This document shows positions 27,703 to 42,820 of a stretch of DNA of 64,000 nucleotides, in pieces. The notes beneath the pieces are model-generated. The model made no database searches. It had not been told where the DNA came from and saw only the letters and a list, made by a program, of their open reading frames with translations. Source of the DNA: Actinomycetota bacterium (GTDB lineage: Bacteria; Actinomycetota; Actinomycetes; Actinomycetales; Microbacteriaceae); NCBI GenBank assembly GCA_020160915.1, contig JAIUPK010000001.1, forward strand, positions 669,961 to 733,960, read 5' to 3'. The number at the start of each line of letters is the position of its first letter. Positions within the stretch are counted from its first letter, which is position 1. The position numbers and the translations under genes were made by a program.

Positions 27703-28914
27703 ATGCGTTCTGTTGAGCTCTTCGCTGGCGCCGGCGGCCTTGCCCTGGGATCCGAGATCGCCGGATTCGAACCGGCCCTGACCGTCGAGTGGGACAGGTG
27801 GGCGTGCGACACAATTCGGGAGAACCAGAAAAGCGGATTCCCACTCGTACAGGGCTGGCGGGTTTACGAAGGTGACGTTCGCACGGTGGACTGGTCCGGA
27901 GTGAACGATGTTGATCTTGTTACAGGTGGGCCGCCCTGTCAGCCCTTCTCAATGGGCGGTAAAGCGCTCGCGCAAACCGACCCTCGGGACATGTTCCCTG
28001 CCACAGCCGAGGTTGTGCGTACTCTCCAGCCCAGGGCGTTTCTCATCGAGAATGTCAAGGGTCTTACACGAGCGACCTTCGCAAACTACTTCCAATACAT
28101 CGTCCTGCGATTGGAGCATCCGGCGAATGTGATTCACGAAGGTGAGGCGTGGGACGCCCATCTTCGGCGACTTCAAGGGGAACACACGGCGACGTTGACG
28201 GACCAGATTCGCTACAACGTCGTCGTAAGCACCGCCAACGCTGCGGACTTTGGGGTGCCTCAACAGCGCCATCGAGTCTTCTTCGTTGGGTTCAGAAGTG
28301 ACGTCAACGCTGAGTATGAGTTCCCCTCTCCGACTCACACCCTTGACGCGCTGTTGCACGACCAGTGGGTTACCGGCACCTATTGGGATCGTCACGCGAT
28401 CGGTGTCGCGCAGAGGCCGACGCTTAGCAGGTCCACTGCTGCACGAGTTGAGCGTCTTCGGGGCTCCGAGAGAGCCAGCCTGGGAGAGGCCTGGGTTACT
28501 GTTCGCGACGCGCTGGCTGGACTCCCCGAGCCCACAGGCGGGCGGTCTGAGCACCTTAACCACAAGCTTCAGCAAGGGGCTCGATCATACGCGGGGCACA
28601 CAGGTTCACCGCTCGACATGCCCTCCAAAGCCCTGAAGGCTGGAGCACACGGGGTCCCCGGGGGAGAGAACATGCTTCGGCGGTTGGATGGCACCGTTCG
28701 CTATTTCACCGTTCGCGAAGCTGCCAGGCTCCAGACGTTCCCCGACAACTACGAACTTCATGGCTCATGGAGTGAAGCAATGCGGCAGCTGGGCAACGCA
28801 GTGCCAGTTCGCTTAGCCGAAGTGGTTTCAAGATCAGTTCACACTCATCTGCTGCTTGCCTCGGCCACGGAGGGCTCAAGCGCGATGGGAGTGTCCCGGG
28901 ATCTGACTATCTAG
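27703..28914 (+). CDS. DNA (cytosine-5)-methyltransferase
   Basis: A 403-residue C5 methyltransferase with motif I FAGAGGLALGSE, motif IV GGPPCQPFS with catalytic cysteine, motif VI ENVKG, motif VIII QQRHRVFFVGF and motif X QLGNAVP. It modifies cytosine within a specific site, presumably protecting the genome from the endonuclease encoded convergently downstream; their stop codons overlap in CTAG. Base composition is visibly less GC-rich than the flanking housekeeping genes, consistent with acquisition by transfer. The target-recognition region lies around residues 210-320. Confidence 0.92.
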   Translation: MRSVELFAGAGGLALGSEIAGFEPALTVEWDRWACDTIRENQKSGFPLVQGWRVYEGDVRTVDWSGVNDVDLVTGGPPCQPFSMGGKALAQTDPRDMFPATAEVVRTLQPRAFLIENVKGLTRATFANYFQYIVLRLEHPANVIHEGEAWDAHLRRLQGEHTATLTDQIRYNVVVSTANAADFGVPQQRHRVFFVGFRSDVNAEYEFPSPTHTLDALLHDQWVTGTYWDRHAIGVAQRPTLSRSTAARVERLRGSERASLGEAWVTVRDALAGLPEPTGGRSEHLNHKLQQGARSYAGHTGSPLDMPSKALKAGAHGVPGGENMLRRLDGTVRYFTVREAARLQTFPDNYELHGSWSEAMRQLGNAVPVRLAEVVSRSVHTHLLLASATEGSSAMGVSRDLTI

Positions 28915-29768
28915 TCGAACATCTCTTCTTCGTTCACGGACTCATCAAGGACAGGTCCCGAACTGTAGGTTGGCCGATGAGGCCTAAATTCGGTTGCGCC
29001 GTTCGAGCCAAGGGTCCATGAACCCGTGCGACTCGCGCATGTTATGGGATCCAGAGCGGCGTATGCGATCAAATAGCCGGGCAGTGCCACGACTACCCAC
29101 GCTGCGGGCAGCAGGGGAACCAGCCAGTCAATCCAAGCTGCCACTGATCTTGTCTCGTGGCCCGAAAGCCGACCGCTGACATCGATTGCCTCCAGCTTGC
29201 GGACTGTCGCCTTGTCACTTTGGAACCGGAAGTTGTACGGGAGCTTCTTCTTGAAGCTAACGAGGAAGTCCGCAAGGCTATGGATCTCTCCGCCCACCAT
29301 GGTGACGGACAAGTCAAGGTCGATCGGGAAGAGGCTGTCGAAGTGACCAGCTTCGACAACTGAGGTATCGCGGTTCTTGCCCGGATCCTTGTTCCCGAAG
29401 CCGTTCGTGTTCCACGTAGCCTGACCCACCCGACGGAACTGCCCGATGAGCATCTTCTCTGGCGCGAGCGCGTCAAGGTCCTCCGCCACGTAGACGCACT
29501 TGAAGGTCGTACGCTCGAGTACACCGCCGACTCGTCCCGAGAGCTTCTTTCGATGCTGACCCAGCCTGCTTCGAAGGTTGCCGGTCGACTTGCCGACGTA
29601 TACGAGATGACCATTCTCGAACAATTGATAGACGCCTCCACGAGTGGCAACCCGCAGCAGGTTGTCCTCCGAGAGCTCAACCGATTCAAGCGACTCAAGG
29701 CTCGCCGCCAGCTGGTCACGTAGCGCGACGGTCACGCTCAGATTGAAGTCAGCTGCAAAGTTGGGCAC
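28911..29768 (-). CDS. GIY-YIG restriction endonuclease, Eco29kI-like
   Basis: A 285-residue nuclease with a GIY-YIG core at residues 45-130: GVYQLFENGHLVYVGKS (Y47, Y57), LRSRLGQH (R66/R68, H72), the catalytic glutamate E104 in APEKML, and NGFGNKDPGK, a segment typical of the Eco29kI family of type II endonucleases (R.Eco29kI recognises CCGCGG). It should cleave unmodified DNA and is paired with the convergent C5 methyltransferase. The C-terminal about 150 residues are additional and may determine specificity. GTG 29768 is the only early start; its ribosome binding site is weak. Confidence 0.8.
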   Translation of the reverse strand: MPNFAADFNLSVTVALRDQLAASLESLESVELSEDNLLRVATRGGVYQLFENGHLVYVGKSTGNLRSRLGQHRKKLSGRVGGVLERTTFKCVYVAEDLDALAPEKMLIGQFRRVGQATWNTNGFGNKDPGKNRDTSVVEAGHFDSLFPIDLDLSVTMVGGEIHSLADFLVSFKKKLPYNFRFQSDKATVRKLEAIDVSGRLSGHETRSVAAWIDWLVPLLPAAWVVVALPGYLIAYAALDPITCASRTGSWTLGSNGATEFRPHRPTYSSGPVLDESVNEEEMFD

Positions 29769-29795
29769 GCGATGAAGGATAAACCAATCGAAAGG

Positions 29796-30866
29796 CTATG
29801 CGCTGAATACCGCAGGATCAGCGAGGTAGTCCTTGAGGACCTGGAGTCGGAACTTGAGCGCTGACTGATCGTTGGGGCTCTGCGAAAGCCTGTCGAATTC
29901 CAGCAAGCGACGCTGCGCCGCGCTCAGTTCCTCTTCATCATTGTCGTAGCGCACTCTTCGCGCCTCCTCGAACGCCTGCAGGGAATTGCGCGCTGGAGGC
30001 GCAGCTCCCGTTGCGGCGAGCTCAAGGTAGAGAAGGAAGTAGACGGAGACCATGCCAATGCTCGAAAGCAGGCGATCCTTTGAAGTGAAGGTCTGTTCGA
30101 GCATGGTGATTGCAGAGGCCGCGCGTTCTCGAAGGGCCTGCGCCAACGCGTCACCATCAGCAGCGGTGCGCAATTCATCCCAGAACTCATCAAGGCGGCT
30201 CTTCTTTGTGTCAGACGGCCCTTCACTCTGTGACCAGGCAAGGAACTTCGTGGCGAGGTCCAGGTGGCGAAACCTTCGATTCGAGAAGGGCAATCGATCG
30301 ACAAAGAAGGGAGATTCGATCAGCTCCCTGGTTGCTTGTCTCAGGGGCCCGCCTCGCCCATTTCGTTTCTCTGCAGCGTTGAGAGGTACAGCCTCGTTGA
30401 GACGGCTAAACATCTCTTCCACCAGTTCGAGGTCGTTAGTCCTAATGAGCATCACGTCGAGCGACGTAGCCGAGAAAAGCGCAGCAGTCTCCGGGAATTG
30501 CGTTTGGAGCTCAGAGTAGGTAAGCCCAGCCGGGCCGGTTGAACCGGTCTCGAGTTCGACGTAGTCGGCGGAAAGCGCAAATCTCCCATCCAAGAAGTCC
30601 CACAAGGCTTCGAGGCGCTGCCTGCCGTCTACGAGGGCGTAACGATACTCTCGGCCCGCTTCAAGCTCCCAGCCTGCAAGGTCATGGAGATAGATCTTGG
30701 GTAGATCAAAGCCGTTCAGCAGGCTGTCAATAAGTAGCTGCTGTTTCGGCCTCGTCCAAACTTCGCCCTGTCGTTGATAGGGCGGAGCTACGTTTATCGA
30801 GTTTCTCAGGCCGTGAAGAAACGCCACCGAGGTGGTTCGCATTGGGCTCACATCGAAGTGACTCAT
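29796..30866 (-). CDS. DUF262 domain protein
   Basis: A 356-residue protein with an N-terminal DUF262 (GmrSD-N/ParB-like) domain: PPYQRQGEVWT, LLIDSLLNGFDLPKIYL and the nucleotide-handling motif LVDGRQRLEAL. Unlike GmrSD enzymes it has no C-terminal DUF1524 HNH nuclease; the rest is helical. DUF262 proteins take part in phage restriction of modified DNA and in other defence systems. ATG 30866 overlaps the stop of the FRG gene by four bases, and the endonuclease gene follows 27 bases downstream, so the three appear co-transcribed. Confidence 0.82.
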   Translation of the reverse strand: MSHFDVSPMRTTSVAFLHGLRNSINVAPPYQRQGEVWTRPKQQLLIDSLLNGFDLPKIYLHDLAGWELEAGREYRYALVDGRQRLEALWDFLDGRFALSADYVELETGSTGPAGLTYSELQTQFPETAALFSATSLDVMLIRTNDLELVEEMFSRLNEAVPLNAAEKRNGRGGPLRQATRELIESPFFVDRLPFSNRRFRHLDLATKFLAWSQSEGPSDTKKSRLDEFWDELRTAADGDALAQALRERAASAITMLEQTFTSKDRLLSSIGMVSVYFLLYLELAATGAAPPARNSLQAFEEARRVRYDNDEEELSAAQRRLLEFDRLSQSPNDQSALKFRLQVLKDYLADPAVFSA

Positions 30867-31645
30867 GAGTCGAAACCATTCCTAATCGAGAGGGCGAGGT
30901 GGTCAAGGTCTGGATAAACGGTACTCGCGCTGATGTTCACGTCTGCGAGCTGTTCCTTGATCTCAGTCTTGTGCTGCGCAGGAATAACGATCTTGCTTGT
31001 TGGCCCACCTGGGGAGTTCAGGGCTCTAGCGCTATGGTCCCCGGACGAGACCGTAAACGTGCCTGCCTGGGCAATAATGCGCCCGAATGTACGACCCGCG
31101 AGAACAGCTGCGGGCTGTAGCACGGGACCGCCACCAGCATCTGGAAGGTACGCGTCGAGATCATTGTCGTGTTCGAGCATCAAGGTGCCTCGCCCATTCC
31201 CAAGTGCCGACAGGTTTAGTTCGTCGGGGCTCAGCTCAAAGAGCGCTCCTGAGACTGGACCAGGCTGATCGGCCGCCAGATCATCGACAGCAAAGAAGAG
31301 CCCCACGAGTGGGTTTTCACTCCAATCCAGTAGCCGCGTCGGAAGTCCATGATGTTGCGCCAAGCAAATCCACTCCCACTCGCTTGCAGGGCGATCCGTG
31401 AGACGACTTGCTGCGTCTTGTTTGAACTGGCGGAGCATCACAAGCTCGTTCTCCAGATAACGTCGATTGCGCGCAACTCTTGGCTCAAGCGGCCAGATTT
31501 CATTTGCTTGACCGCGATACCAGAGTCTCTGACCTGCGGCCCTCGTCGCTCTCAGCCTGGACATCATGTCCTCGAGGCTCGTGACGACTACCGGCTCGGC
31601 AGCCTCAGGCTCGTCGACTGGTTCGTTCGGCACATCGCCAATCAT
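30863..31645 (-). CDS. FRG-domain protein
   Basis: A 260-residue protein with a FRG domain (about residues 20-130: LWYRGQANEIWPLEP and CLAQHHGLPTRLLDWSENP with LVGLFFAV). FRG proteins occur in abortive-infection and other defence loci; the biochemical activity is not settled. I chose ATG 31645 (MIGDVPNEP); an extension to 31723 is open but lacks a good ribosome binding site. It is the first gene of the minus-strand FRG, DUF262, endonuclease set, and is divergent from the NERD gene. Confidence 0.8.
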   Translation of the reverse strand: MIGDVPNEPVDEPEAAEPVVVTSLEDMMSRLRATRAAGQRLWYRGQANEIWPLEPRVARNRRYLENELVMLRQFKQDAASRLTDRPASEWEWICLAQHHGLPTRLLDWSENPLVGLFFAVDDLAADQPGPVSGALFELSPDELNLSALGNGRGTLMLEHDNDLDAYLPDAGGGPVLQPAAVLAGRTFGRIIAQAGTFTVSSGDHSARALNSPGGPTSKIVIPAQHKTEIKEQLADVNISASTVYPDLDHLALSIRNGFDS

Positions 31646-31850
31646 GGCCCAAATATTCCTCAAGTGGATGCGGCCGGGTTGCTCACTTACCCAACGGGCC
31701 GGGGCGGTCAGGCCGCGCGACAAGGCCGCGCGACGCCATGATCACTATCTAGCTCGCAGCTACTTCGACTGGTGGCGTCGCGGAGCCAACCAGGCACCGA
31801 CCCCCGAACTCGGGCTACTGGCATCCGCCCCCTAGGGCCAGGCTGGAAAC

Positions 31851-32810
31851 ATGAGTGACCTTCGAGAGCGTGTGCCGGGCCATGCGCTGATCGACGAGCT
31901 TCTGCACCAGTGGGATCTGGGCACGATCCACGTCGACGAGCGGTCCAACGGGATCGTCATCGACGACGAGGCCGAGGGCTGGTACCGCGGTGTGCTCGGC
32001 GAGCGCCGGGTCGCCGCCATCCTCGACCAGCTGAGCGCCGCACAGGCGCAGTCACCGTGGACCGTGCTGCACTCGGTCCCCGTGGGTCGCGGCGAGAGCG
32101 ACATCGACCACGTGGTGATCGGCCCGCCCGGGGTGTTCACGATCAACACCAAGTTCAGCCCAGGCAAGGATGTCTGGGTCGCCGGCCGTGGCATGTATGT
32201 CGGAGGAGCGAAGCAGCACTACGTGGTCAATGCGCTGTATGAGGCGCGGCGGGCATCCACCTATCTGACCAGGCGGTGCGGGCTGACCGTTCCCGTCACC
32301 GGGATCATCGTGTTCGTCGACCCGAACCGCATCACGCACAAGGCGCCCGCCGGCGGAGGTGAAGCCGACCCGCCCATCAAGGTCGTGCGCGACACCGAGC
32401 TGTTCAATGCCCTGCTGGTGCGCCGCGAGTTCAGCGACGAGCAGATCGCCCGAATCGTGGATGCCGCGATCCGCCCCGACACGTGGAGCGACAGCACCAC
32501 CCCCTCAAGCCTCGGGACTCACGTAGCCCGCGAGTTCCAGGCGCTTGAGCAGGAGGTCGGGCCGCGACTATCGCTGCCCCGCGGGGTGGCGCGCAGCGCA
32601 GAACCTCGGGCCTACTCGGGGCGGAGCTACTCGCGCGGGTCGACCGCGCCACGGCGGCAGTACAAGGGGCCTCGGCGAACTGGGCGCAAGAAGACGTCGC
32701 TGCTCGAGCGGTTTCTCGTTGCAGTATTCGGTATGGCCGCACTGATGCTTCTTGCATTCTTCGGGTTGCCTTTGTTTGTGCGGCTCCTCACTGACGCGTT
32801 GGTACCTTAG
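31851..32810 (+). CDS. NERD-domain protein with C-terminal membrane anchor
   Basis: A 319-residue protein with a nuclease-related domain (about residues 45-160). Recognisable are GERRVAAIL, the catalytic-type acid in GESDIDHVVIGPPGVFTINTK and the lysine that follows. After a basic linker (RRQYKGPRRTGRKK) residues 284-310 form one hydrophobic segment, so the nuclease-like domain would face the cytoplasm at the membrane. NERD proteins are linked to DNA processing. ATG 31851 follows GGAAAC at short distance. Its codon use looks like the host core genome more than the adjacent defence genes. Confidence 0.8.
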   Translation: MSDLRERVPGHALIDELLHQWDLGTIHVDERSNGIVIDDEAEGWYRGVLGERRVAAILDQLSAAQAQSPWTVLHSVPVGRGESDIDHVVIGPPGVFTINTKFSPGKDVWVAGRGMYVGGAKQHYVVNALYEARRASTYLTRRCGLTVPVTGIIVFVDPNRITHKAPAGGGEADPPIKVVRDTELFNALLVRREFSDEQIARIVDAAIRPDTWSDSTTPSSLGTHVAREFQALEQEVGPRLSLPRGVARSAEPRAYSGRSYSRGSTAPRRQYKGPRRTGRKKTSLLERFLVAVFGMAALMLLAFFGLPLFVRLLTDALVP

Positions 32811-32945
32811 GCGCAATTCCGCGTGCTGCGAGTCGGTCCCAGCGGTGCACCCGTACGCAACTGCGGAGATTCTCGGGGGCGTGCGGCGTGTCGAAGGCGA
32901 CACGCCGCACTCGGCACGGAATCCGCCGCAGTCGCGCACGCGACG

Positions 32946-32978
32946 GGTCTCGATACGCCGCTGCGCGGCTACTCGACC
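32946..32978. repeat. Family 1 repeat, diverged copy
   Basis: GGTCTCGATACGCCGCTGCG followed by CGGCTACTCGACC, the inverted form with G-for-A changes at the ends. Confidence 0.7.
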
Positions 32979-33039
32979 GGCGAGTTGCCACTTCTCGCCC
33001 TGCACCGCCACCGTCGCCCCGCTGCTACGGCCTCGAAAA

Positions 33040-33474
33040 CTACGGCAGCACCAGCACGTGCCGCCGATCGCCGGCCGCGAGCATCTTCTCGATGCCCCGA
33101 TCGAAGGTCGCGAGCAGCACCCCGGAGGATGCGGCGAGGTTCACGAGGTGGGCATCCGTCACCTGGCGGGTCGTCGCCAGGGCCGTGAGCGATACGGCGG
33201 GCTGGGCAAGGCTCGATGCGTCGGGCAGGAACTGGTGACCGGGAACAGCACGCATCGCGGCGAGCAGGGCGAGTGCATCAGCCATGGAGATCCGCTCGGT
33301 CACGACGGCCGGGTTCGTCGACAGCCGTACGAATCCAGACTCTGTCACCGGGGTCGTCATCCAGTCACCGCGACGTGCAGCGAACCAGGTGTGGGCGCGC
33401 CGGTGATGCACGTGCTGCGGCCACGCCAGTGCGACGAGAACGTTCACGTCGAGAAGGTGCGATTCAGTCGGCAT
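33040..33474 (-). CDS. PIN-domain toxin (VapC family), second module
   Basis: A 144-residue PIN-domain ribonuclease: LLDVNVLVAL with the first acid, SGFVRLSTNP, TDAHLVNLA with the third acid and ATFDRGIEKM with the last. It overlaps the antitoxin gene by 11 bases. It is unrelated in detail to the PIN toxin at 25885. Confidence 0.88.
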   Translation of the reverse strand: MPTESHLLDVNVLVALAWPQHVHHRRAHTWFAARRGDWMTTPVTESGFVRLSTNPAVVTERISMADALALLAAMRAVPGHQFLPDASSLAQPAVSLTALATTRQVTDAHLVNLAASSGVLLATFDRGIEKMLAAGDRRHVLVLP

Positions 33475-33902: not shown

Positions 33903-35834
33903 CTACGGCTGCATGTGGTCGCGCCAGTTGCCGCTCTCGATCACCGGATGCTTCTTGGCCATCGCCTCGTCGTAGAGCACGCCCGGCACTATGCGACCGT
34001 CAGCGAGCTCGACGGGGCCGCGGTACAGGCCAGGGGGTTCGCCTTCGATGACACGAAGCAACACGTCGATCGGCAGCGTGTACAGCTCGCCGGAGACGGC
34101 CACGCCATCCTTCTCCACCTCGTACATGCCGGGGTGAACGCCACCGATGTCGTGCATCCGGTACTTCGGAGCCGTCTTCATCTCGGCGATGAACTCGGCA
34201 CCCTGCAGGTTGCCGTGCAGTCCGAGGCCACGCATGAGGGTTCCGTTGACGAAGAGCAGGTCATCCTGAAGCACGACCTCCTTGTCCTTGCGCGCCGCCC
34301 AACCGAAGCCGAGCAGCAGGATCATGAGGAAGGCGTACCCGAGCGAGACACCCGGTGAGGCGTTGATCCCGACCTGCGCAGCGTTGATCAGGCCGAAGAA
34401 TGACAGCACCATACAGATGCCCGACGTCACCGCCGCCGCGTACATCCGTCGGTCGATCACGAACACGGCAATCGAGCCCAGCAACACGCCCGCCAACACC
34501 GCGCCCGACCCGAACAGCGCGAGCCCCTGGTAGATCACGCCATTGCCCGCGAGCTTGTCGAGGCCCACCTCCGCGGCATTGGTGCCAGCCGCACCGAGCG
34601 AGTTGTCGATCAGGCCGGATGCCCACTGCGCCAAGCTCGGCAACATCGCAAGGATGATCGCCGGGGCGTAGCGCAGCGCGCTCACGTTGGTCGCCTGTGC
34701 GCCGATCACCAGACCGATGAACAGCAGGATCGGCACCAGCGCCTGCATCGGGAATATCGCGAGGAACAGACCGACCAGACCGCTGAAGCAGACCAGCGCA
34801 ACGACGATTCCGGTGACCAGCGAGTAGCCGATGCGACCACCGACCTTCTTCCAGCCGGGGTGGCCGATGTAGACGGCCGGCGGGAACGGCGAGCCGAGGA
34901 ACGACCCGATGATCGCGCCCAGGCCATCGGCGGTCAGAACCGCGCGAGCCGAGTACCGGTCACCGGCGGCCGCCGCCGATTCGACGTTGGTCATGGCCTC
35001 GGTGAAGTTGTAGATACCGAGCGGGATGGCCGTCGCCAGCAGCGGGGCGATGTCCTGAAGGCCCGCGAGAACCTCACCACCGGGAATCGGGAAGTAGATG
35101 CCGATCGACGCGATCGACTCAGCGACCGCGCTCGGCTTGAGGATGTCCGACCACCCGAGCAGCACGGCGATCCACGCGATCACGGTGCCCGCAACCACGG
35201 CGACGAGGCCGACGGGAGCGTTGAACGGCATCTTCCGGAACCCGAGCCAGCCGACGAGGATGAAGCCGAAGGTCACGAATGCGATCCACGGCGCCTCCCA
35301 CATCTGAGCGGCCGGGCTCATCGAGATGAACGTGATGGAGATACCCGCGAGGGCACCGAGCATTGCCGCGCGCGGCGTCCACTTGCGAATCCAAGGACCG
35401 AAGATCGCACCCAGCAGAATGATGAACCCGACAATGAACGCCCACGCAAGTCCCGCGTGCCACGCCTTCAGCGGGTCACCCGACTGCAGGAACACCGGCA
35501 GCATGACGACGAGCACGACGATGAACATGTGCGGCACGCTCGGCCCGTAGGGCAGAGCCGCGACATCCGTTCGGTTCTCCCGTCTGGCGAGGCGTCTGGC
35601 AAGAATCGCGTACCAGATGTTGCCCAACGGCAGCGCAATACCCAGCGCCGGGAGGATGCGACCGAAGACGACGTTGTCTGGCATCTGGATGACCGCCAGG
35701 CAGAGCCCGGACAGCACGATCACGTTGAGCAGGACGTTGGTGCCGAGCCCGAACAGCCCGTTCCAGTCGCCCTTGACCCACCACTTGATCTGCACCGGTG
35801 CAGAAGTGGTGGTCGCGGTGGAGTTGCTACTCAT
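33903..35834 (-). CDS. NCS2-family permease fused to an allophanate-hydrolase C-terminal-like domain
   Basis: A 643-residue protein. Residues about 30-515 form a polytopic permease of the xanthine/uracil (NCS2) superfamily, with TDVAALPYGPSVPHMF near the third segment and many hydrophobic helices. Residues about 526-643 are a soluble domain: LLFVNGTLMRGLGL, APKYRMHDIGGVHPGMYEV, VSGELYTLP and EPPGLYRGPVELADGR. This pattern is that of the gamma-glutamylcyclotransferase-like C-terminal domain of allophanate hydrolase (AtzF/DUR1,2). Fusion to a transporter is unusual and points to a ureide or related substrate. It is the last gene of the operon, overlapping the hydrolase gene by four bases. Confidence 0.85.
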   Translation of the reverse strand: MSSNSTATTTSAPVQIKWWVKGDWNGLFGLGTNVLLNVIVLSGLCLAVIQMPDNVVFGRILPALGIALPLGNIWYAILARRLARRENRTDVAALPYGPSVPHMFIVVLVVMLPVFLQSGDPLKAWHAGLAWAFIVGFIILLGAIFGPWIRKWTPRAAMLGALAGISITFISMSPAAQMWEAPWIAFVTFGFILVGWLGFRKMPFNAPVGLVAVVAGTVIAWIAVLLGWSDILKPSAVAESIASIGIYFPIPGGEVLAGLQDIAPLLATAIPLGIYNFTEAMTNVESAAAAGDRYSARAVLTADGLGAIIGSFLGSPFPPAVYIGHPGWKKVGGRIGYSLVTGIVVALVCFSGLVGLFLAIFPMQALVPILLFIGLVIGAQATNVSALRYAPAIILAMLPSLAQWASGLIDNSLGAAGTNAAEVGLDKLAGNGVIYQGLALFGSGAVLAGVLLGSIAVFVIDRRMYAAAVTSGICMVLSFFGLINAAQVGINASPGVSLGYAFLMILLLGFGWAARKDKEVVLQDDLLFVNGTLMRGLGLHGNLQGAEFIAEMKTAPKYRMHDIGGVHPGMYEVEKDGVAVSGELYTLPIDVLLRVIEGEPPGLYRGPVELADGRIVPGVLYDEAMAKKHPVIESGNWRDHMQP

Positions 35835-36541
35835 TTCTTTGCTCCAATCTCGGTGGTTGCCGAATCGACTGCGTCTAGGAGACTCGTCGACGTGCCGACC
35901 CAGCCGACGATTCCGCCCTGGGCCTTGAACATGTTGAGCGCCGACTCGTAGAACTCAGCGAAGTACGAGCCGGTGCAGTCGGACAGGATGAGGCACTCGA
36001 AACCGCGGTCGTTCGCCTCGCGGGCTGTCGACTGAACGCACACCTCAGTGGTGACCCCCGTGATGATGAGCTGCTCGATCCCCTTGGCGCGCAGGATCGT
36101 CTCGAGGTCGGTGGCGTAGAACGCCCCCTTGCCGGGCTTGTCGAGCACCACTTCGCCCTCGATGGGTGCGAGCTCCGGAATGATCTCGTGCCCGGCCGAG
36201 CCGCGAGTCAGCAATCGACCCATCGGGCCGTCGTCGCCGATGCGAAGCGTCGGGTTGCCACGATCCCGCTTGGCCGGGAACAGGTCGGCGAGATCCTCGC
36301 GATGGCCCTCCCTGGTGTGGATGACCATCCACCCCTTCTCACGGAACATGTCGAGCACTGCGCGGGTCGGCTTGATCGAGCCGCGCAGTGTGGAGACGTC
36401 GTTGCCGAGTGACTCCCCGAAGCCACCCGTCTCCATGAAGTCGCGCTGGAAGTCGATACACAGCAGCGCCACCTTCTTCGGGTCGAACGTGAACCCGTAC
36501 GGTTCTGCCGGCACCGTGACGGTGCCAGTCGTCTCATTCAT
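35831..36541 (-). CDS. Cysteine hydrolase of the isochorismatase superfamily, biuret-hydrolase-like
   Basis: A 236-residue hydrolase with the catalytic triad Asp30 (LLCIDFQRDF), Lys135 (VLDKPGKGAF) and Cys168 (GVTTEVCVQSTA) including the usual cis-peptide TT. Beyond the superfamily signature it shares HTREGHREDLADL, ATDLETIL and the glutamine in FKAQGG (Q208) with biuret hydrolases (BiuH) and triuret hydrolase, which convert ureides by amide hydrolysis. Neighbours (carbamate kinase, FdrA set) fit a ureide substrate. Other options are an oxamate or ureidoacrylate-type amidase. It is 15 bases after the carbamate kinase gene. Confidence 0.8.
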   Translation of the reverse strand: MNETTGTVTVPAEPYGFTFDPKKVALLCIDFQRDFMETGGFGESLGNDVSTLRGSIKPTRAVLDMFREKGWMVIHTREGHREDLADLFPAKRDRGNPTLRIGDDGPMGRLLTRGSAGHEIIPELAPIEGEVVLDKPGKGAFYATDLETILRAKGIEQLIITGVTTEVCVQSTAREANDRGFECLILSDCTGSYFAEFYESALNMFKAQGGIVGWVGTSTSLLDAVDSATTEIGAKK

Positions 36542-36556
36542 GCGTGACCTCTCTAC

Positions 36557-37528
36557 TCAGCCGTTCTTCGTGACGATAGTTCCCGCGGTGCCGGCGAGAG
36601 CATCCGGAAGCTTGGAGATCGAGGTGATGATGGCGCGCGTTCCGCCCGCCTCGATGAAGTCGATCGCTGACGCCACCTTCGGGCCCATCGACCCCGGGGG
36701 AAACTGCCCGGCAGCGAGGTGCTCGCGGAGCTCATCGACGCCCACAGTGCGCAGCGCACGCTGCCCGGGAGCGTTGAAGTCGACATAGACCTCGTCGACC
36801 CCGGTGACGAGAACTAGAGTGCCGACGCCGATCTGCCCGGCCAGCAGTGCAGATGCCCGATCCTTGTCGATGACCGCATCGACCGGATGCCACCCCGCCG
36901 AGTCGCGCACCACCGGAATGCCTCCCCCGCCGGCCGCGATCACGACAGCGCCGCTGTCGACCAGGGTGCGGATCTGGCTCGCCTCGATGATCGTCTTCGG
37001 AATCGGGCTCGCCACAACGCGGCGGTAGGTGTTCTCCCCCATCTCGGTCACCACCCACCCCTCCTCAGCGACGCGCAGCCGCGCCACCTCGGCGGTGAGC
37101 TGCCCACCGATCGGCTTGGTCGGCTTCTCGAAGGCCGGATCGTCGGCGTCCACCTCGGCGTGAGTCAGAACCGCAACCGCCCGGATGCCGCTGTGCCGCG
37201 CATCGAGGGCGGAGTCGATCGCGACGGCGAGCATGTGACCGATGCCACCCTGCGAGTCGGCGACCGCGAGCCACAACGGAAGGGCGGGCAGGCCCTCGAC
37301 CATGGCATCCGGTGCCACGAGCTCGCCGCGGCGCAGAATGTAGCCCACCTGCGGGCCATTGCCGTGGGTGACGACGGCGGTCCAGCCGTCGACCACCAGG
37401 GCGGCGACCGACTCCGCGAAGGTGGCGGCGCGCTCGAGCTGACGGTCGACAGAGCCGGGCTCGCCGTCGAGCACCAGGGCGTTACCGCCGATGGCGATCA
37501 GTACGGTGTCGTCGTTCGTGGCCGTCAT
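36557..37528 (-). CDS. Carbamate kinase
   Basis: A 323-residue amino-acid-kinase-fold enzyme with LIAIGGNAL at the N-terminus, THGNGPQVGYI, AAGGGGIPV, DKDRASALLA and GSMGPKVASAIDF. It makes ATP from carbamoyl phosphate and ADP, releasing carbamate that decays to ammonia and CO2. No arginine deiminase genes are nearby. It lies next to FdrA/YlbE homologues, as in the E. coli allantoin region, where a catabolic carbamate kinase takes carbamoyl phosphate from oxalurate phosphorolysis. ATG 37528 overlaps the DUF1116 stop. Confidence 0.92.
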   Translation of the reverse strand: MTATNDDTVLIAIGGNALVLDGEPGSVDRQLERAATFAESVAALVVDGWTAVVTHGNGPQVGYILRRGELVAPDAMVEGLPALPLWLAVADSQGGIGHMLAVAIDSALDARHSGIRAVAVLTHAEVDADDPAFEKPTKPIGGQLTAEVARLRVAEEGWVVTEMGENTYRRVVASPIPKTIIEASQIRTLVDSGAVVIAAGGGGIPVVRDSAGWHPVDAVIDKDRASALLAGQIGVGTLVLVTGVDEVYVDFNAPGQRALRTVGVDELREHLAAGQFPPGSMGPKVASAIDFIEAGGTRAIITSISKLPDALAGTAGTIVTKNG

Positions 37529-38922
37529 GTGTGTGCTCTCTGCTCGGCGAGGAATCGGGCTGCCTTGAGGAAGACCTCGCTCGGCGCGGTCACGATGCCC
37601 GCGCCGATCTGGCCGACGCCCGCCTCCTTGTGCGCGATGCCCGTGTTGATGAGCGGCAGCACGCCGGTGTCGAGAACCTTGAGCACGTCGATACCCGACG
37701 GGGTGCCAGCGAAGTTCAGCGGCGGCAGAGGGTACGCCGGGTGCGGACCGAGCGTGATGCGGCGCATCGAGCGGGTCGCGGCGAGCGCATCGTTCGGGGT
37801 GCCCCCGACGAACTGGGTGATCGCGGGGGATGCCGCCATCGCGAATCCGCCGAGGCCGAGAGTCTCGGTGATGGCCGAGTCCCCGAGGTCAGGGTTGGCG
37901 TCTTCGGGTCCGAAGCCGGGGAAGAACAGTCCATCCGCGGGGCCGACGGGGGTGGTGAACCACTCGGTTCCGCTCCCGGCGACCCGAAGGCCGAACTCCA
38001 CCCCATTGCGCGCCATCGCGGTGACGAGAGTGGAGTTCTCGACGCCGATCGCGGCATCCAGAGCCAGCTTGGCGGCGGCCATGGAGATGTTGAGAGCGAA
38101 GTGATCGTTGCCCGCCAGGAAGGCGAGCACCGCGACGCTGTCGGAATTGGGTTCCAGCTCGGCGATCGTCGGCGCGAGTCGGCGGGCCAGGAGCGAGGTC
38201 GCTGCGACGTTGCGGTTGTGACCCTCGTCGCCCATCGACAGTGCCTGACCGATGAGCGAGGTGACGTCGATCGGGCCGTACTTCTCGAGCGTGCGGTCGA
38301 GCACCGGGCCGAGCACATCGCGCATCCAGGTGAGCCGAGTGATGACTTCGGAGTCGTACGCACCGAACCGCAGCACCTTGCCGAGGCCCTCGTTGAGGCT
38401 CGCAAACGCCTGCCTGCCGTCGTCGAGGTCGGTCGCCACCAGCACCGGCATGGATGGCGCGATGACTCCCGCCATCGGGCCAACAGCCCCGTGGTGGTGA
38501 CAGGGTGCGACTGCGATCTCGCCGGAGTCGAGCATCCTGATCGCCTCGTCGGCGTTGTCGGCCCAGCCTTCGAACAGTGTCGCGCCGATGAGCGCGCCTC
38601 GCATCGGGCCGCACATGCGCTCAACCTCGATGGGCGGACCGGCGTGCAGCAACGTGCGGCCCTCGGCGATGCCGGGCATCACCTCGCGGGCGGGTCGGAT
38701 GCGCGTGAGCTGCGGCTTCACGGCGTGCACCTTCGCGATGGCGACGGCGTTCGCGGCATCCGTCACCTCGGTGTCGAGGGTCAGCGCGAGGCGAGCCACG
38801 TCGGCGTCGCCGAATGCCGGCGGACGCCAGTCGAGCTGCGTCACCTGCGCCGCGGGAACGCCCTCTACGATCAACGGGAGGCCAGCGTTGATCACGCTGA
38901 GTTCGTCGGTAAGGATGCTCAT
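37525..38922 (-). CDS. DUF1116 protein, YlbE-like carbamoyltransferase subunit
   Basis: A 465-residue protein of the DUF1116/YlbE family: GPPIEVERMCGPMRGALIGA, SGEIAVAPCHHHGAVGPMAG, MGDEGHNRN and IAHKEAGVGQIGAG are conserved blocks. In E. coli YlbE works with FdrA and a DUF2877 protein; as far as I recall these were reported as the oxamate (oxalurate) carbamoyltransferase, which releases carbamoyl phosphate. All three partners are consecutive here with four-base overlaps, indicating a fixed-stoichiometry complex. The start ATG 38922 overlaps the fdrA stop. Confidence 0.9.
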   Translation of the reverse strand: MSILTDELSVINAGLPLIVEGVPAAQVTQLDWRPPAFGDADVARLALTLDTEVTDAANAVAIAKVHAVKPQLTRIRPAREVMPGIAEGRTLLHAGPPIEVERMCGPMRGALIGATLFEGWADNADEAIRMLDSGEIAVAPCHHHGAVGPMAGVIAPSMPVLVATDLDDGRQAFASLNEGLGKVLRFGAYDSEVITRLTWMRDVLGPVLDRTLEKYGPIDVTSLIGQALSMGDEGHNRNVAATSLLARRLAPTIAELEPNSDSVAVLAFLAGNDHFALNISMAAAKLALDAAIGVENSTLVTAMARNGVEFGLRVAGSGTEWFTTPVGPADGLFFPGFGPEDANPDLGDSAITETLGLGGFAMAASPAITQFVGGTPNDALAATRSMRRITLGPHPAYPLPPLNFAGTPSGIDVLKVLDTGVLPLINTGIAHKEAGVGQIGAGIVTAPSEVFLKAARFLAEQRAHT

Positions 38923-40376
38923 GCAACACCTCCCGCGGCCAGTCGGGCCGCCGCCGCATTGGTCTCGGCGAGCACGACGCCCGCACTGGTCAGGATGCCG
39001 CGCTGCCGCGCCAGCCCCTGCGGATCACCCGCCGTACCGCACACCGAGCCAACAACCAGCAGCGTTCTGCCGTCCGCCGCGGCCGCGGCTTTCGCCTGAG
39101 CCACCGCCGTCGCCACGGGTGTTGCGGGGTCGGTGTTCGCCCCGTAGCCGAGAACGAGGTCGAGCAGGATCGTGCCGACGGTGGCATCCGAGCCCGCCGC
39201 CGCGATCCTCTCGGCCCGCGACTCGGGGTCGATCATCGGATGCGGCTTGCCCGCCGTGTACTCGTCGTCGCCGAGGTCGATGATCTCGGCGACGACTCCG
39301 GCGCGCTTGAGGATGATCTTCGACTCCGACGCGAGCGTGCCACCCGTGTAGAGGCCGAGCACGCGACCGGGCGGCGCATGCACCGGCTCGGGCTCCGTGA
39401 CCGTGAACGGGTGCCCAGCGAGCCCGGCCGCGGCGAGCGCGCCCCCCTCGAGAGTGCCGCGCACCAGGACGCCGTCGGTGTCAGAGTCGTCTTGGCCGAG
39501 GAAGCAGGCGACGACCGGGGTTCCCTTGGCGGCGATGCCGGAGAGCCGGGCCAGCAGCGCGTCGGCGACCTCGGGTGCCGGGGGCTTCGAGACCATCATG
39601 ATGACCGTCGTGTCGGGGTCGTCGATCAGGAAGTCGAGAGCGAGGTTCGCCATCAGGCCGCCCACCTCGGCCGACAGGTCGCGACCGCCGACACCGATCA
39701 GCTGCGACACTCCGGCGCCCGCGCCGTCGAGCAGCCCCGACACCTCCTGTGCGCCGGTTCCCGAGGCGGCGACGATGCCGACCGACCCTCGCGCCACCGC
39801 GTTCGCGAAACCGAGCGGCACGCCGTCGAGGATCGCGGTGCCGCAGTCCGGGCCCATCATGAGCAGTCGCTTCTCAACTGCGAGTGTCTTGAGCCGCACC
39901 TCGTCGGCCACGGCCACGTTGTCGGAGAAGCAGAGAACGTGCATTCCCCCGCGCAGCGCCTGCTCGGCAACGACGGGCGCGTAGGTTCCGGCGATCGAGA
40001 TTGCGACCAGGTTGGCGGGATGCTCCGCCAGGGCTGCGACGCTGACGCCCTCGTCGATCGTCCCCGGTCGTTGCTCCTCGGTTGCCGACCCGGCGTCCAC
40101 AGCCGTCAGCCCCGCCTCGGCTGCGTCGAGTGCCGCCGTCACGATCTCGGAGTCGGTGCCGCGCACCACGAAGACAAGATCGTCGGGGGCTGCGGTGAGT
40201 CCGTCGGGAAGCATGCCCGAGTCGGCCAGGATGCCGAGGTTCGCGGGAGTAGCCATGACAGCACCGACCCGCACGACCCCGTCGCGCTTCTCCGTCGTCG
40301 ATGCGATCGCCATCAGGGCGACCGAGTCGCGGTAGAAGTGCGGGAGCACTCGGGAGGAGAGAACCGTGTCGCTCAT
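38919..40376 (-). CDS. fdrA: FdrA family protein (acyl-CoA synthetase-like fold)
   Basis: A 485-residue FdrA homologue. It has succinyl-CoA-synthetase-like Rossmann modules (GPDCGTAILDGVPLGFAN, GIVAASGTGAQEVSGLLD, GVGGRDLSAEVGG and a C-terminal VLGLYTGGTLASESK). It is a presumed carbamoyltransferase subunit with the DUF1116 and DUF2877 proteins. ATG 40376 (MSDTVLSSRVLP) is chosen because it overlaps the upstream stop in an ATGA; the open frame extends to 40475. The family name reflects an old E. coli suppressor phenotype, not the enzyme activity. Confidence 0.92.
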   Translation of the reverse strand: MSDTVLSSRVLPHFYRDSVALMAIASTTEKRDGVVRVGAVMATPANLGILADSGMLPDGLTAAPDDLVFVVRGTDSEIVTAALDAAEAGLTAVDAGSATEEQRPGTIDEGVSVAALAEHPANLVAISIAGTYAPVVAEQALRGGMHVLCFSDNVAVADEVRLKTLAVEKRLLMMGPDCGTAILDGVPLGFANAVARGSVGIVAASGTGAQEVSGLLDGAGAGVSQLIGVGGRDLSAEVGGLMANLALDFLIDDPDTTVIMMVSKPPAPEVADALLARLSGIAAKGTPVVACFLGQDDSDTDGVLVRGTLEGGALAAAGLAGHPFTVTEPEPVHAPPGRVLGLYTGGTLASESKIILKRAGVVAEIIDLGDDEYTAGKPHPMIDPESRAERIAAAGSDATVGTILLDLVLGYGANTDPATPVATAVAQAKAAAAADGRTLLVVGSVCGTAGDPQGLARQRGILTSAGVVLAETNAAAARLAAGGVA

Positions 40377-41224
40377 GCGGCACCCTTCGTTCGATGCGCG
40401 AGCTCCGCTCGCAGTGTGGCGGCCAAGCCGGTGAGAAGGTCGACGCCGGATGTCGCGCCCCACCGGCTCGCACACGCGAGGATCGTGCGGGCGGGCATCC
40501 CGTCGACCATGCCGTCGACGAGCTGGTAGACGTGCTCCGCGAAGCGACCGGATGCCGCGGCCACGATGTAGTGGCGCGAGGCCGCCGTCGTCGCGGCGAG
40601 CAGTGGGGTCACCGCTGCGGACAGTCGGCTCGCCGCATCCGCCAGGCCGAGTGCAGCGAGGGCGGCAAGCGTGCCGACCACCATGTCGTCACCGGACGGG
40701 GTGGTGCCGGGGCCAGCACCGATGAGCTCCGGCAGCAGCACGCGCGGGTCGCCGTGGAGGGCAGCCTCAGCGAGTGCCGGGGCGAGTGACCGCACCCGGG
40801 CGAGGCCGCCGTCGAAGGATGCCGCGGGGGCAGCGTTGCCCCGTGCGAGCTCGGCGCTGACCGCATGCACCGCGCGGGCATCGAGGTGTCGGGGGGTGAA
40901 GTGCAGATCGACCGGCACGAGAGTTGCGACCCGCGACCAGGCGGAGAGGTCCACGGGATGCCCGGGCGCGACGGCCGAGAGGTCGCGACGGACACGGGCG
41001 AACTCGGCCCCATTCGGAAGGCACACACCTCCGGGGGTGACGCCGCCGCTCGCGTTGGCAATCGTCAGCAGGCGCTGGGTCGTGGTCGATCGGAGTACGA
41101 CGGCCGATTGTCCGAGATGGACGATCAGCTGGTATCCAGCTGAGAACCCGTCGGCGTCGCTGACACCGAGCGTCGCATCGATGCGAGCGAGATCGGGTTC
41201 CGCAATCATTGCCGCCATCGCCAT
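40373..41224 (-). CDS. DUF2877 protein (YlbF-like)
   Basis: A 283-residue protein with the DUF2877 hallmark GAGPGTTPSGDDMVVGTLAAL (residues about 175-195) and an Ala-rich C-terminus. It is the third partner of the FdrA-YlbE group in E. coli and many other bacteria. It opens the leftward operon and is divergent from pucR, 96 bases away. The start is uncertain: ATG 41224 is taken; ATG 41209 or TTG 41245 are alternatives, none with a strong ribosome binding site. Confidence 0.85.
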   Translation of the reverse strand: MAMAAMIAEPDLARIDATLGVSDADGFSAGYQLIVHLGQSAVVLRSTTTQRLLTIANASGGVTPGGVCLPNGAEFARVRRDLSAVAPGHPVDLSAWSRVATLVPVDLHFTPRHLDARAVHAVSAELARGNAAPAASFDGGLARVRSLAPALAEAALHGDPRVLLPELIGAGPGTTPSGDDMVVGTLAALAALGLADAASRLSAAVTPLLAATTAASRHYIVAAASGRFAEHVYQLVDGMVDGMPARTILACASRWGATSGVDLLTGLAATLRAELAHRTKGAA

Positions 41225-41293
41225 ACTTGGGAATAGTAGGGTCAACGATCACGGTATGGCTCGGTCCGGAAAGGACGACAATCCGGGCGGCGA

Positions 41294-41310
41294 TTGTCCA
41301 GAAGGGACAA
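41294..41310. promoter_or_regulatory. Perfect palindrome over the pucR ribosome binding site
   Basis: TTGTCC (41294-41299) and GGACAA (41305-41310) are an exact inverted repeat with a 5-base spacer. The right arm runs into the ribosome binding site AAAGGAG (41309-41315) of pucR. It fits a PucR operator or an RNA hairpin masking the site. The left half with its neighbours (ATTGTCCAG) recurs at 3510-3518. Confidence 0.55.
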
Positions 41311-41320
41311 AGGAGTTGAT

Positions 41321-42820
41321 GTGAGCACGATCACAGTGCGTGAGGTTCTCACTCTGCCCGTGCTCCGCGGCACGTTCGTCGTCGCCGGGCAACGCGGTCT
41401 GAGCCGCGCCGTCACCGGGGTGAACGTGATGGAGGTTCCCGACATCGAGTCGTTCGTCAAGGGGGGCGAGCTCCTCCTCACGACGGCGTACCCGCTGCGA
41501 GAGCATCCCGAAGATCTGAGCACCCTCGTGCGCACACTCTCTCGCCTCGGTCTGGCCGGTCTTGCGGTCAAGACCGGCCGGTACCTGGAGAAGCTTCCCG
41601 ACGAAGCCTTGGCGGTGGCGAACGAGCTCGACTTTCCGGTGATGCTGGTCGCCGAGCACACCTCGTTCAACGAGGTCATCGGCGCCGTGCTCGCCGTCGT
41701 GCTGACCGAGTATGGGGCCGAGCCGGCGGGCGCGGAAGCGATCCGGGAGCGTCTCACCGGTGTGGCGCTCGCCGGCGGTGGGCTCGTCGAGATCGCCCGA
41801 ACCCTGGCCGGGGCACTGGGACGGCACGTCGGCATCCTCGATCCCGACGGTGCATTGCTCGGCGAGGGGGGCGGCGGCGAACGCTCCGGCAACGACGAGA
41901 CACACGAGTCATGGTCGTTCCCGATCACCGTGGGTGGCACCGAACGGGGGCGCATCGTCGTGCGCGGCGACGACGAACCGACGCTGGGCCAGCGGCGACT
42001 CATCCGGCAAGCCTGCTTCGCAGCCGGGATGCACATCGCGCAGGCCGTGGCGAGCCTCGAACTCGACCGCCAGATGCGGGTGCTCTTCCTCGAGGAGCTG
42101 CTCGCGGGCAAGACCATCGACGAATCCCTTGCTCGCGAGCGGTCACGTCTGTTCGGCTGGGACTTCGGCTCCGATCACGTCGTCGTGCTCGCCCGGCTGA
42201 GTCACGAGCTTGCGGATGCCACGGTCGCCCGCGCCGCCGAGACCGGGTTCATCAGGGGAGCGGTCGCGTGGGCGCGCGGGCAGGAGGCGGTCGCGATCGT
42301 GCCGGCGGCGAGCATCCCGGGGGACGGGACGCCGTGGGTCGAGGCGGCGCATTGGGGTGAGACGCTCGCGCGGCTCGGCGGCGGGAAGGTCACGGTCGCC
42401 ACGGGAAGCGTCGCGGAGTCACCGTCGCGGCTCGCGGAATCCCACAGCGCCGCCCGGTCAACGCTCGCTATCGCCCAGGCGACCGGACGCGCGAACGCCC
42501 GCCACGACCTGCTCGCGCTCGAGCGAGTGATTCTCTCGGTGCCCGACGACCTGCTCGCCGAGCTCGTCGCTGCCGAGCTCGGCCCGCTGATCGCGGTCGA
42601 CGCCGCTACCGGCTCGGAGCTGTGCGAGACGCTCGAGATGTTTCTCGGCACGGGCAACGCCGCGGATGCCGCTCGCCGACTGTTCATCCACTACAACACG
42701 ATGAAGCACCGGATGTCGCGCATCTCCGACCTCATCGGTGTCGACCTGCACGACCCGCGTGCCCGCCTCAAGCTCGCCTTCGCGCTGCAGGTGCGCAAGT
42801 TGGTGGCGCTTCCGGAGTGA
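41321..42820 (+). CDS. PucR-family transcriptional regulator
   Basis: A 499-residue regulator. The N-terminal PucR domain (residues 1-125, VREVLTLPVLRGTFVVAG, GGELLLTTAYPL, VKTGRYLEKLP) is followed by a GAF-like/GGDEF-like middle part and a C-terminal PucR helix-turn-helix (FIHYNTMKHRMSRISDLIGVDL). Members control purine, ureide or other nitrogen catabolism and respond to pathway metabolites. Divergent orientation to the FdrA/carbamate-kinase operon marks that operon as its likely target. GTG 41321 lies five bases after AAAGGAG. Confidence 0.92.
   Translation: MSTITVREVLTLPVLRGTFVVAGQRGLSRAVTGVNVMEVPDIESFVKGGELLLTTAYPLREHPEDLSTLVRTLSRLGLAGLAVKTGRYLEKLPDEALAVANELDFPVMLVAEHTSFNEVIGAVLAVVLTEYGAEPAGAEAIRERLTGVALAGGGLVEIARTLAGALGRHVGILDPDGALLGEGGGGERSGNDETHESWSFPITVGGTERGRIVVRGDDEPTLGQRRLIRQACFAAGMHIAQAVASLELDRQMRVLFLEELLAGKTIDESLARERSRLFGWDFGSDHVVVLARLSHELADATVARAAETGFIRGAVAWARGQEAVAIVPAASIPGDGTPWVEAAHWGETLARLGGGKVTVATGSVAESPSRLAESHSAARSTLAIAQATGRANARHDLLALERVILSVPDDLLAELVAAELGPLIAVDAATGSELCETLEMFLGTGNAADAARRLFIHYNTMKHRMSRISDLIGVDLHDPRARLKLAFALQVRKLVALPE

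Follow-up and report, generated by a model that had tools for sequence, protein, structure and literature searches.

The operon and its genome

The stretch of DNA analysed here, to which we refer as the window, is 64,000 nucleotides long and comes from a genome of the family Microbacteriaceae (GCA_020160915.1, contig JAIUPK010000001.1, positions 669,961 to 733,960). It carries a six-gene operon (Table 1) for the three subunits AllF, AllG and AllH of a carbamoyltransferase complex, a carbamate kinase, an isochorismatase-like hydrolase and an importer with a fused AH_C domain. We propose that these parts, all of known families, form an ATP-conserving module for ureide phosphorolysis that works on a triuret-like compound. 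We regard this proposal as evenly poised between right and wrong.

Table 1. Genes of the operon and its divergent regulator (positions within the window)
Feature	Position	Strand	Details
AH_C-fused importer	33903..35834	-	UraA/SLC26-type membrane part ~residues 1-515 + AH_C 527-641; 643 residues
Isochorismatase-like hydrolase, putative triuret-hydrolase (TrtA) type	35831..36541	-	PF00857 152 bits
Carbamate kinase (AllK/ArcC-like)	36557..37528	-	NF009007 310.6 bits
AllG (DUF1116), FdrA-type carbamoyltransferase subunit	37525..38922	-	PF06545 303.5 bits
AllF (FdrA) subunit	38919..40376 (scanned as 38919-40379)	-	NF004760 421.8 bits; Ligase_CoA 107.8 bits
AllH (DUF2877) subunit	40373..41224	-	PF11392 75.7 bits (scanned from 41245)
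PucR-family regulator, divergent	41294..42820	+	PF07905 121.8 bits

An earlier note on this DNA had described six genes joined by 4-base overlaps and one 15-base gap, and the reading frames and gene order agree with it. ATGA overlaps are read from the sequence at four joints (AllH/AllF, AllF/AllG, AllG/kinase and hydrolase/transporter), and 15 bases separate the kinase from the hydrolase. For AllH, an upstream TTG at 41245 is also a possible start. The arrangement is not due to chance, because the same parts recur in the same order in three further genomes of the family (L043-L045) and in L091 and L092. Their identity to the parts of the window is 62-89%, lower for AllH (38-51%), and the PucR regulator is 57-75% identical to its copies in L043-L045 and L091. 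In L091, a single open frame covers both kinase and hydrolase.

The genome measures 2.93 Mb and is 99.75% complete. It holds one AllG copy; the hydrolase has one strong match, and two others reach no more than 54 bits. AllG is patchy in the family: only 6 of 299 genomes, this one included, have any, and none was found in the five same-genus genomes listed. This distribution suggests lateral gain of the operon. The absence of allophanate hydrolase and urease, claimed earlier for the window, extends to the whole genome, which has no match to urease alpha. The genome search for an AtzF-type enzyme found no canonical allophanate hydrolase over the cut-off; among its five weaker matches, the AH_C part is hit only in the tail of the transporter itself.

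The hydrolase is of predicted triuret type

The earlier note had called the hydrolase biuret- or triuret-like, and the evidence favours the second name. The closest relative in the PDB is the triuret hydrolase TrtA (6xix, 266 bits), ahead of the chains of the biuret hydrolase BiuH (241 and 229), and the catalytic triad D24, K129 and C162 is present. Four residues are reported to discriminate the two enzymes, F35, N41, E160 and I205 in TrtA against Y, Y, D and V in BiuH (PMC7948467). The window hydrolase has all four TrtA letters (F/N/E/I) and does not match the BiuH set; it also has V157, where BiuH has I. E72 and Q202, given as triuret-binding residues of TrtA (PMC7948467), are kept. In the tree, its clade is sister to characterised TrtA together with triuret-operon-like copies (97/93), and characterised BiuH forms a separate clade (100/100). 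An identity as BiuH was thus rejected on the residues, the tree placement and the BiuH model NF050097, which scores 272.6 bits against a cut-off of 370. As the enzyme is TrtA-type at every discriminating residue, the pathway is not expected to start with the conversion of biuret to allophanate; judged by its sequence, the expected product would be 1-carboxybiuret.

The same holds for most related loci. We gathered 126 AllG loci by AllG similarity, so they are not independent, and 34 of them bear the hydrolase. The full TrtA residue set is found in 29 of the 34. Hydrolases of L103, L141 and L151 have TrtA letters at the readable positions, that of L109 has H at 160, and L101 has a BiuH-type copy alone.

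A reverse control started from the hydrolase in 349 Pseudomonadota genomes, 40 of which had a strong match. Its 56 stretches, mostly 6-8 kb per side, take in every listed match but that at L116's own place. AllG is a neighbour of 5 of 34 TrtA-type copies, of none of 32 BiuH-type copies (one of which, in L224, has an incomplete flank) and of none of 6 other hydrolases. Allophanate hydrolase lies near 10, 13 and 1 of them, respectively. The majority of TrtA-type copies are thus not beside AllG; those that adjoin it are all TrtA-type and accompanied by AH_C. Ten control loci (L208, L214, L215, L216, L220, L221, L222, L224, L225 and L227) combine a TrtA-type hydrolase with the same unusual transporter and have no AllG or AtzF within the stretch.

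The AllF-AllG-AllH complex and its substrate

All three subunits are present: PF06545 and PF11392 are over their cut-offs, and AllF matches FdrA, although the FdrA subfamily model NF004760 stays slightly below its cut-off of 433. The kinase exceeds the cut-off of NF009007 (266) and does not reach that of the stricter arcC equivalog (314.5 bits against 358.25). The earlier view of one linked pathway, in which carbamoyl phosphate is turned into ATP, is supported.

Three groups stand out in the AllG tree. Loci linked to AllD, including that of K-12, form a group of their own (95). Those with a ring-opening enzyme and a xanthine-dehydrogenase-like (XDH) enzyme group separately, and their substrate would be ureidomalonate derived from barbiturate. 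The window sits with the hydrolase-linked rows. Within this last set, an AtzD-type cyanuric acid hydrolase replaces the TrtA-type hydrolase twice: AllG of the clinical plasmids L040 and L173 is nested inside rows with hydrolase and AH_C (99), and that of L038/L041 pairs with L059 (99). The AllF tree repeats both placings. The ring-opening enzymes of L038, L040, L041 and L173 cluster with AtzD of Pseudomonas ADP (pADP-1; 100/98). The hydrolases of L173 lie in a separate operon, together with AtzF.

TrtA and AtzD are reported to have a common product, 1-carboxybiuret (PMC7948467; PMC6219798). Because the AtzD-linked relatives in both trees share the product of TrtA, 1-carboxybiuret is the simplest common denominator and, on this comparison of sequences, probably the substrate that AllFGH phosphorolyses, rather than allophanate. 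TrtA-type hydrolases without AllG stand beside homologues of AtzE and AtzH in L209 and L214; in L219, L251 and L255 these homologues accompany a TrtA-type plus a BiuH-type copy. AtzE and AtzH act on 1-carboxybiuret and 1,3-dicarboxyurea.

The AtzD-type enzyme is joined to AllFGHK on plasmids of Klebsiella and Aminobacter (L040 2446-11375; L038 7034-20846; L173). A protein of 411/454 residues with no Pfam match is conserved next to it.

Residues of AllG follow the tree. The window has N236, H274 and V308. Positions 236 and 274 are N/H in 37 of 37 rows of the hydrolase set and in 15 of 15 rows with ring-opening enzyme and XDH, and Q/Q in all four AllD rows. At position 308, the hydrolase set has V and the ring-opening and XDH rows have T. 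The 37 rows leave out L066 and L069, which have H, Q and V at the three positions, and L109 and L141, which have N, H and T. Because N/H is common in other groups too (31 of 31 XDH rows) and AllD rows are few, we treat the pattern as a correlate only. No specificity position in AllF passed the filter.

The earlier note proposed that the hydrolase converts biuret to allophanate and that AllFGH splits allophanate into carbamoyl phosphate and carbamate, with no need of AtzF or urease. We consider this unlikely. BiuH does belong to the same hydrolase family, and such a self-contained route to ammonia would be needed by some hosts: among 32 genomes selected for carrying the module or close variants, AtzF is over the cut-off in 10 and urease is present in 19, and 11 (several of them metagenome-assembled), like the genome of the window, have neither. 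However, among the 34 hydrolase-bearing AllG loci L101 is the only one whose sole copy is BiuH-type, and in the control no BiuH-type copy stands beside AllG. A first step that makes allophanate also leaves the AtzD-linked AllFGHK unexplained, and allophanate is shorter than the remaining substrates inferred for the AllFGH family.

Another acyl-urea, for example one derived from pyrimidines, appears less probable still. It corresponds to a published reading of the E. coli island (PMC12928451), and it gains from the cytosine/purine-type permease of the E. coli copy described below and from AllFG commonly lying beside XDH-like and ring-opening enzymes. Yet such enzymes were not found in hydrolase loci, except for the AtzD-type ring-opening enzyme of L173, and the group that has them is a different AllG clade, with T308. 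We dropped the pyrimidine reading on these two grounds. As an observation apart, ten loci (L052, L054, L058, L068, L078, L080, L145, L148, L156 and L165) have AllFG, some with AllH and kinase, beside XDH-like and barbiturase-like enzymes, which suggests that an oxidative pyrimidine route there yields carbamoyl phosphate by phosphorolysis of ureidomalonate.

The order of the steps could also be reversed. AH_C would then decarboxylate 1-carboxybiuret to biuret, from which AllFGH would form carbamoyl phosphate and urea. AH_C belongs to a decarboxylating protein. 1-Carboxybiuret is reported to decarboxylate readily, and TrtB is said to decarboxylate it elsewhere (PMC7948467, PMC6219798). Against this order, oxalurate and the presumed ureidomalonate have a terminal carboxylate and biuret has none, and the AtzF-bearing loci L097, L105 and L111 fit allophanate, not urea, as the product of AllFGH. 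Its net reaction would be identical to that of the scheme we prefer. We hold this order improbable.

Least credible is the ordinary oxalurate route, in which AllFGH would form carbamoyl phosphate and oxamate, and the hydrolase would release oxalate and ammonia from the latter: E. coli AllFGH is reported to catalyse the reversible conversion of oxalurate into oxamate plus carbamoyl phosphate (PMC11326118), but a search from E. coli AllD (E 1e-50) found no match in any of the 34 hydrolase-bearing loci, the hydrolase is present in none of four AllD-linked rows, Q236/Q274 of the oxalurate group are not in the window, the triuret-binding residues are retained, and the two operons would be redundant in the E. 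coli genomes that carry both (see below). Among the scanned genes of the window there is no AllD-like protein, the rest of its genome not having been searched for AllD. The oxalurate/oxamate reading was dropped for want of an AllD partner and for the different AllG group. The earlier claim of a route distinct from that of oxalurate thus survives, and allophanate as the phosphorolysed substrate gives way to 1-carboxybiuret, to which the relatives in the AllG and AllF trees point.

The transporter and the AH_C domain

The allophanate-type domain that had been noticed on the transporter is indeed AH_C (PF21986, residues 527-641, 89.9 bits). For the membrane part, no Pfam family matches at E values up to 1. 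An AlphaFold model from 14 sequences reached a mean pLDDT of 72.9 and pTM of 0.69, with the AH_C part below 50. Since its best Foldseek matches are SVCT1, UraA and SLC26 (E about 1e-6 to 1e-5, TM at most 0.67 by target), with AZG1 lower, the modelled fold marks the protein as a putative distant UraA/SLC26-type importer.

AH_C occurs in several forms. A recheck of the reading frames gave three kinds of in-frame fusion: to the transporter (window, L043-L045, L091 and L092), to the kinase (L051, L136 and L166) and to the hydrolase (L131). In 14 AllG loci with the hydrolase it is encoded as a small protein of its own, and in the Chloroflexi locus L093 it is a separate gene after the transporter. 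Directly 3' of the kinase it is found in 14 loci (L050, L051, L099, L102, L104, L108, L116, L119, L123, L124, L125, L136, L153 and L166). The free, kinase-fused and hydrolase-fused forms led us to reject the idea of an accidental tail of this transporter.

In any form, AH_C is present in 27 of the 34 AllG loci with hydrolase versus 4 of the 92 without, and those four are allophanate hydrolases, whole or split. The amidase domain of AtzF is missing from the stretch in 23 of the 27. Its sequence record thus marks AH_C as a putative recurring part of the pathway. The window does not have the AtzF architecture of amidase plus AH_C, as its AH_C sits on the transporter without an amidase. In AtzF, AH_C decarboxylates the amidase product. 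A loop of the domain reads GTLM in the window versus GAHL in AtzF, with Leu in 24 of 27 non-AtzF rows and His in 9 of 9 AtzF rows; it is therefore plausible that the substrate has shifted, for instance to allophanate itself.

Two variants of the gene arrangement deserve mention. L094, L109 and L112 have two transporter copies, side by side or on either side of the hydrolase. In L066 and L069, a very divergent AllG stands opposite a hydrolase-transporter pair, with no recognisable AllF or kinase in the stretch; L066 additionally has a full AtzF.

A possible pathway

A possible scheme begins with the importer taking in triuret or a closely similar polyurea. The TrtA-type hydrolase would strip off one ammonia and leave 1-carboxybiuret. 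This intermediate would then react with phosphate on the AllF-AllG-AllH complex, which is paralogous to oxamic transcarbamylase, to give carbamoyl phosphate and allophanate. The kinase would transfer phosphate to ADP, yielding ATP and carbamate, which decomposes to CO2 and ammonia. Allophanate, or an N-carboxylated product akin to it, would be consumed by AH_C, which in the window is attached to the importer, and this might happen through decarboxylation to urea; such consumption would also pull the unfavourable phosphorolysis. The substrates, the direction in which AllFGH runs and the AH_C reaction are all inferred from the gene set, its conservation, the residue types and the phylogeny. In L097, L103, L105 and L111, AtzF, whole or split, is present for allophanate. 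In genomes with neither AtzF nor urease, the window's included, AH_C is the candidate allophanate enzyme where present.

Several observations weigh against this scheme. Firstly, BiuH-type copies do occur near AllG: alone in L101 and beside a TrtA-type copy in L103 (a TrtA-type and a BiuH-type copy also stand side by side in L173). Characterised TrtA is ultraspecific, and the triuret-operon copies sit on long branches of the hydrolase tree; the module hydrolases could therefore have another substrate. Secondly, the trees have exceptions. L130 combines a ring-opening enzyme of the XDH-linked kind with an AllG in the hydrolase set, the XDH-linked L133 and L158 have ring-opening enzymes closer to AtzD, and L157 lies within the hydrolase set with XDH and without hydrolase. 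L066, L069, L109 and L141 have the hydrolase, and their AllG falls elsewhere in the tree. In the free AllF tree, the window's six rows are outside the hydrolase clade, with support below 95; constraining the window clade inside the hydrolase set, chosen after the AllG tree had been viewed, gave a likelihood difference of +16.9 and a p-AU of 0.78. Thirdly, the association between hydrolase and AH_C was not significant in a pair test that took the tree into account and had too few pairs. AH_C is the weakest step of the scheme: its reaction is uncertain because the loop His is missing outside AtzF and the window has E where 19 of 27 rows have R. Finally, the window genome has no recognisable enzyme for allophanate.

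The E. coli copy and distribution

The module is found across several bacterial phyla; Silvimonas amylolytica and Dyella silvae are among its environmental carriers. A plasmid copy in E. coli (L171 9980-17190, NZ_CP019909.1) consists of hydrolase, AllH, FdrA, DUF1116, kinase and a 129-residue AH_C protein, accompanied by a cytosine/purine-type permease and a LysR regulator. Its hydrolase is 60.9% identical to that of the window. Of 5426 complete E. coli genomes, 1547 (28.5%) contain DNA of this module, with at least 80% covered in 1543; 1488 of its places are chromosomal and 127 plasmid-borne. The K-12 type allFGHK occurs in 5373 of the 5426. At least 1494 genomes have both the module and the oxalurate allFGHK operon, which argues for different substrates. 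The AH_C protein of L171 aligns end to end with PDB entry 5c5z. We take 5c5z to be E. coli c4763, presumably one of the AH_C proteins.

Next to the operon in the window lies a defence-like island (27703-33474) with a DNA methyltransferase, a GIY-YIG/Eco29kI-like nuclease and GmrSD_N, FRG (PDC-S15), NERD and PIN proteins. GC content falls to 0.59 at 28-32 kb.

Relation to known systems

One of the nearest known systems is E. coli allFGHK, the oxamic transcarbamylase with its catabolic carbamate kinase, which shares four gene families and the ATP-forming logic (PMC11326118, PMC9843812) and for which kinetics with carbamoyl phosphate and oxamate are given (PMC11326118). The window differs in its AllG clade, the missing AllD, and the extra TrtA-type hydrolase, AH_C and importer. 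The triuret pathway of Herbaspirillum (trtA-trtB-biuH-atzF; PMC7948467) shares the type of first enzyme and the expected intermediate, 1-carboxybiuret; it hydrolyses or decarboxylates throughout, whereas AllFGHK of the window would replace trtB, biuH and atzF. The cyanuric acid pathway of pADP-1 (atzDGEHF) also has 1-carboxybiuret in common, and the plasmids L038, L040, L041 and L173 couple AtzD to AllFGHK; in pADP-1 itself, AtzEG, AtzH and AtzF are non-phosphorolytic and save no ATP. Ureidoglycine carbamoyltransferase of Rubrobacter likewise catalyses ureide phosphorolysis beside a carbamate kinase, but is described as related to ATCase and acting on allantoate (PMC4016543).

Co-location of biuH-like genes with allFGHK is already in print, for nitrifiers in 2025 (PMC12625717) and for an E. 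coli island in 2026 (PMC12928451). Ammonia-oxidising archaea and comammox Nitrospira have biuH beside allFGHK and so share with the window the co-location of hydrolase and allFGHK. That study assigns the two to distinct biuret and oxalurate pathways and names a GatA-like protein as candidate allophanate hydrolase; the available text makes no mention of free AH_C (PMC12625717). The E. coli region GR29 matches the module of L171 in gene sizes and order and was read as serving pyrimidine nitrogen use, with AH_C and AllH not named in the available text (PMC12928451). Among the matches listed in a literature search that covered main texts without supplements, no paper unites these genes as one phosphorolytic route and none combines allophanate, carbamoyl phosphate and phosphorolysis; cyanuric acid hydrolase and carbamate kinase occur together only in PMC12625717.

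Taken together, the ATP-conserving ureide route envisaged in the earlier note is supported in part, with triuret and 1-carboxybiuret probably in place of biuret and allophanate, on account of the TrtA-type residues and the AllG and AllF relatives. It is not particular to this genome, and the co-location is already in print (PMC12625717, PMC12928451).

Biological meaning

We suggest, tentatively and with slightly more doubt than confidence, that the AllFGH enzymes are acyl-urea phosphorylases whose natural substrates as a family number three or more (oxalurate, ureidomalonate and 1-carboxybiuret among them), that the operons of the window and of E. coli form an ATP-conserving triuret route and that AH_C, free or fused, is a new allophanate enzyme.

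If this is true, a poorly explained operon present in more than a thousand complete E. coli genomes and in several phyla would obtain one testable function. A role would follow for 5c5z, whose structure is solved and whose role is unclear, and for DUF1116 and DUF2877 beyond oxalurate. Compounds thought to be simply hydrolysed would yield ATP. Triuret, which is formed on urate oxidation and has been reported in human urine under oxidative stress (PMC7948467), would then be linked to the nitrogen and energy supply of bacteria.

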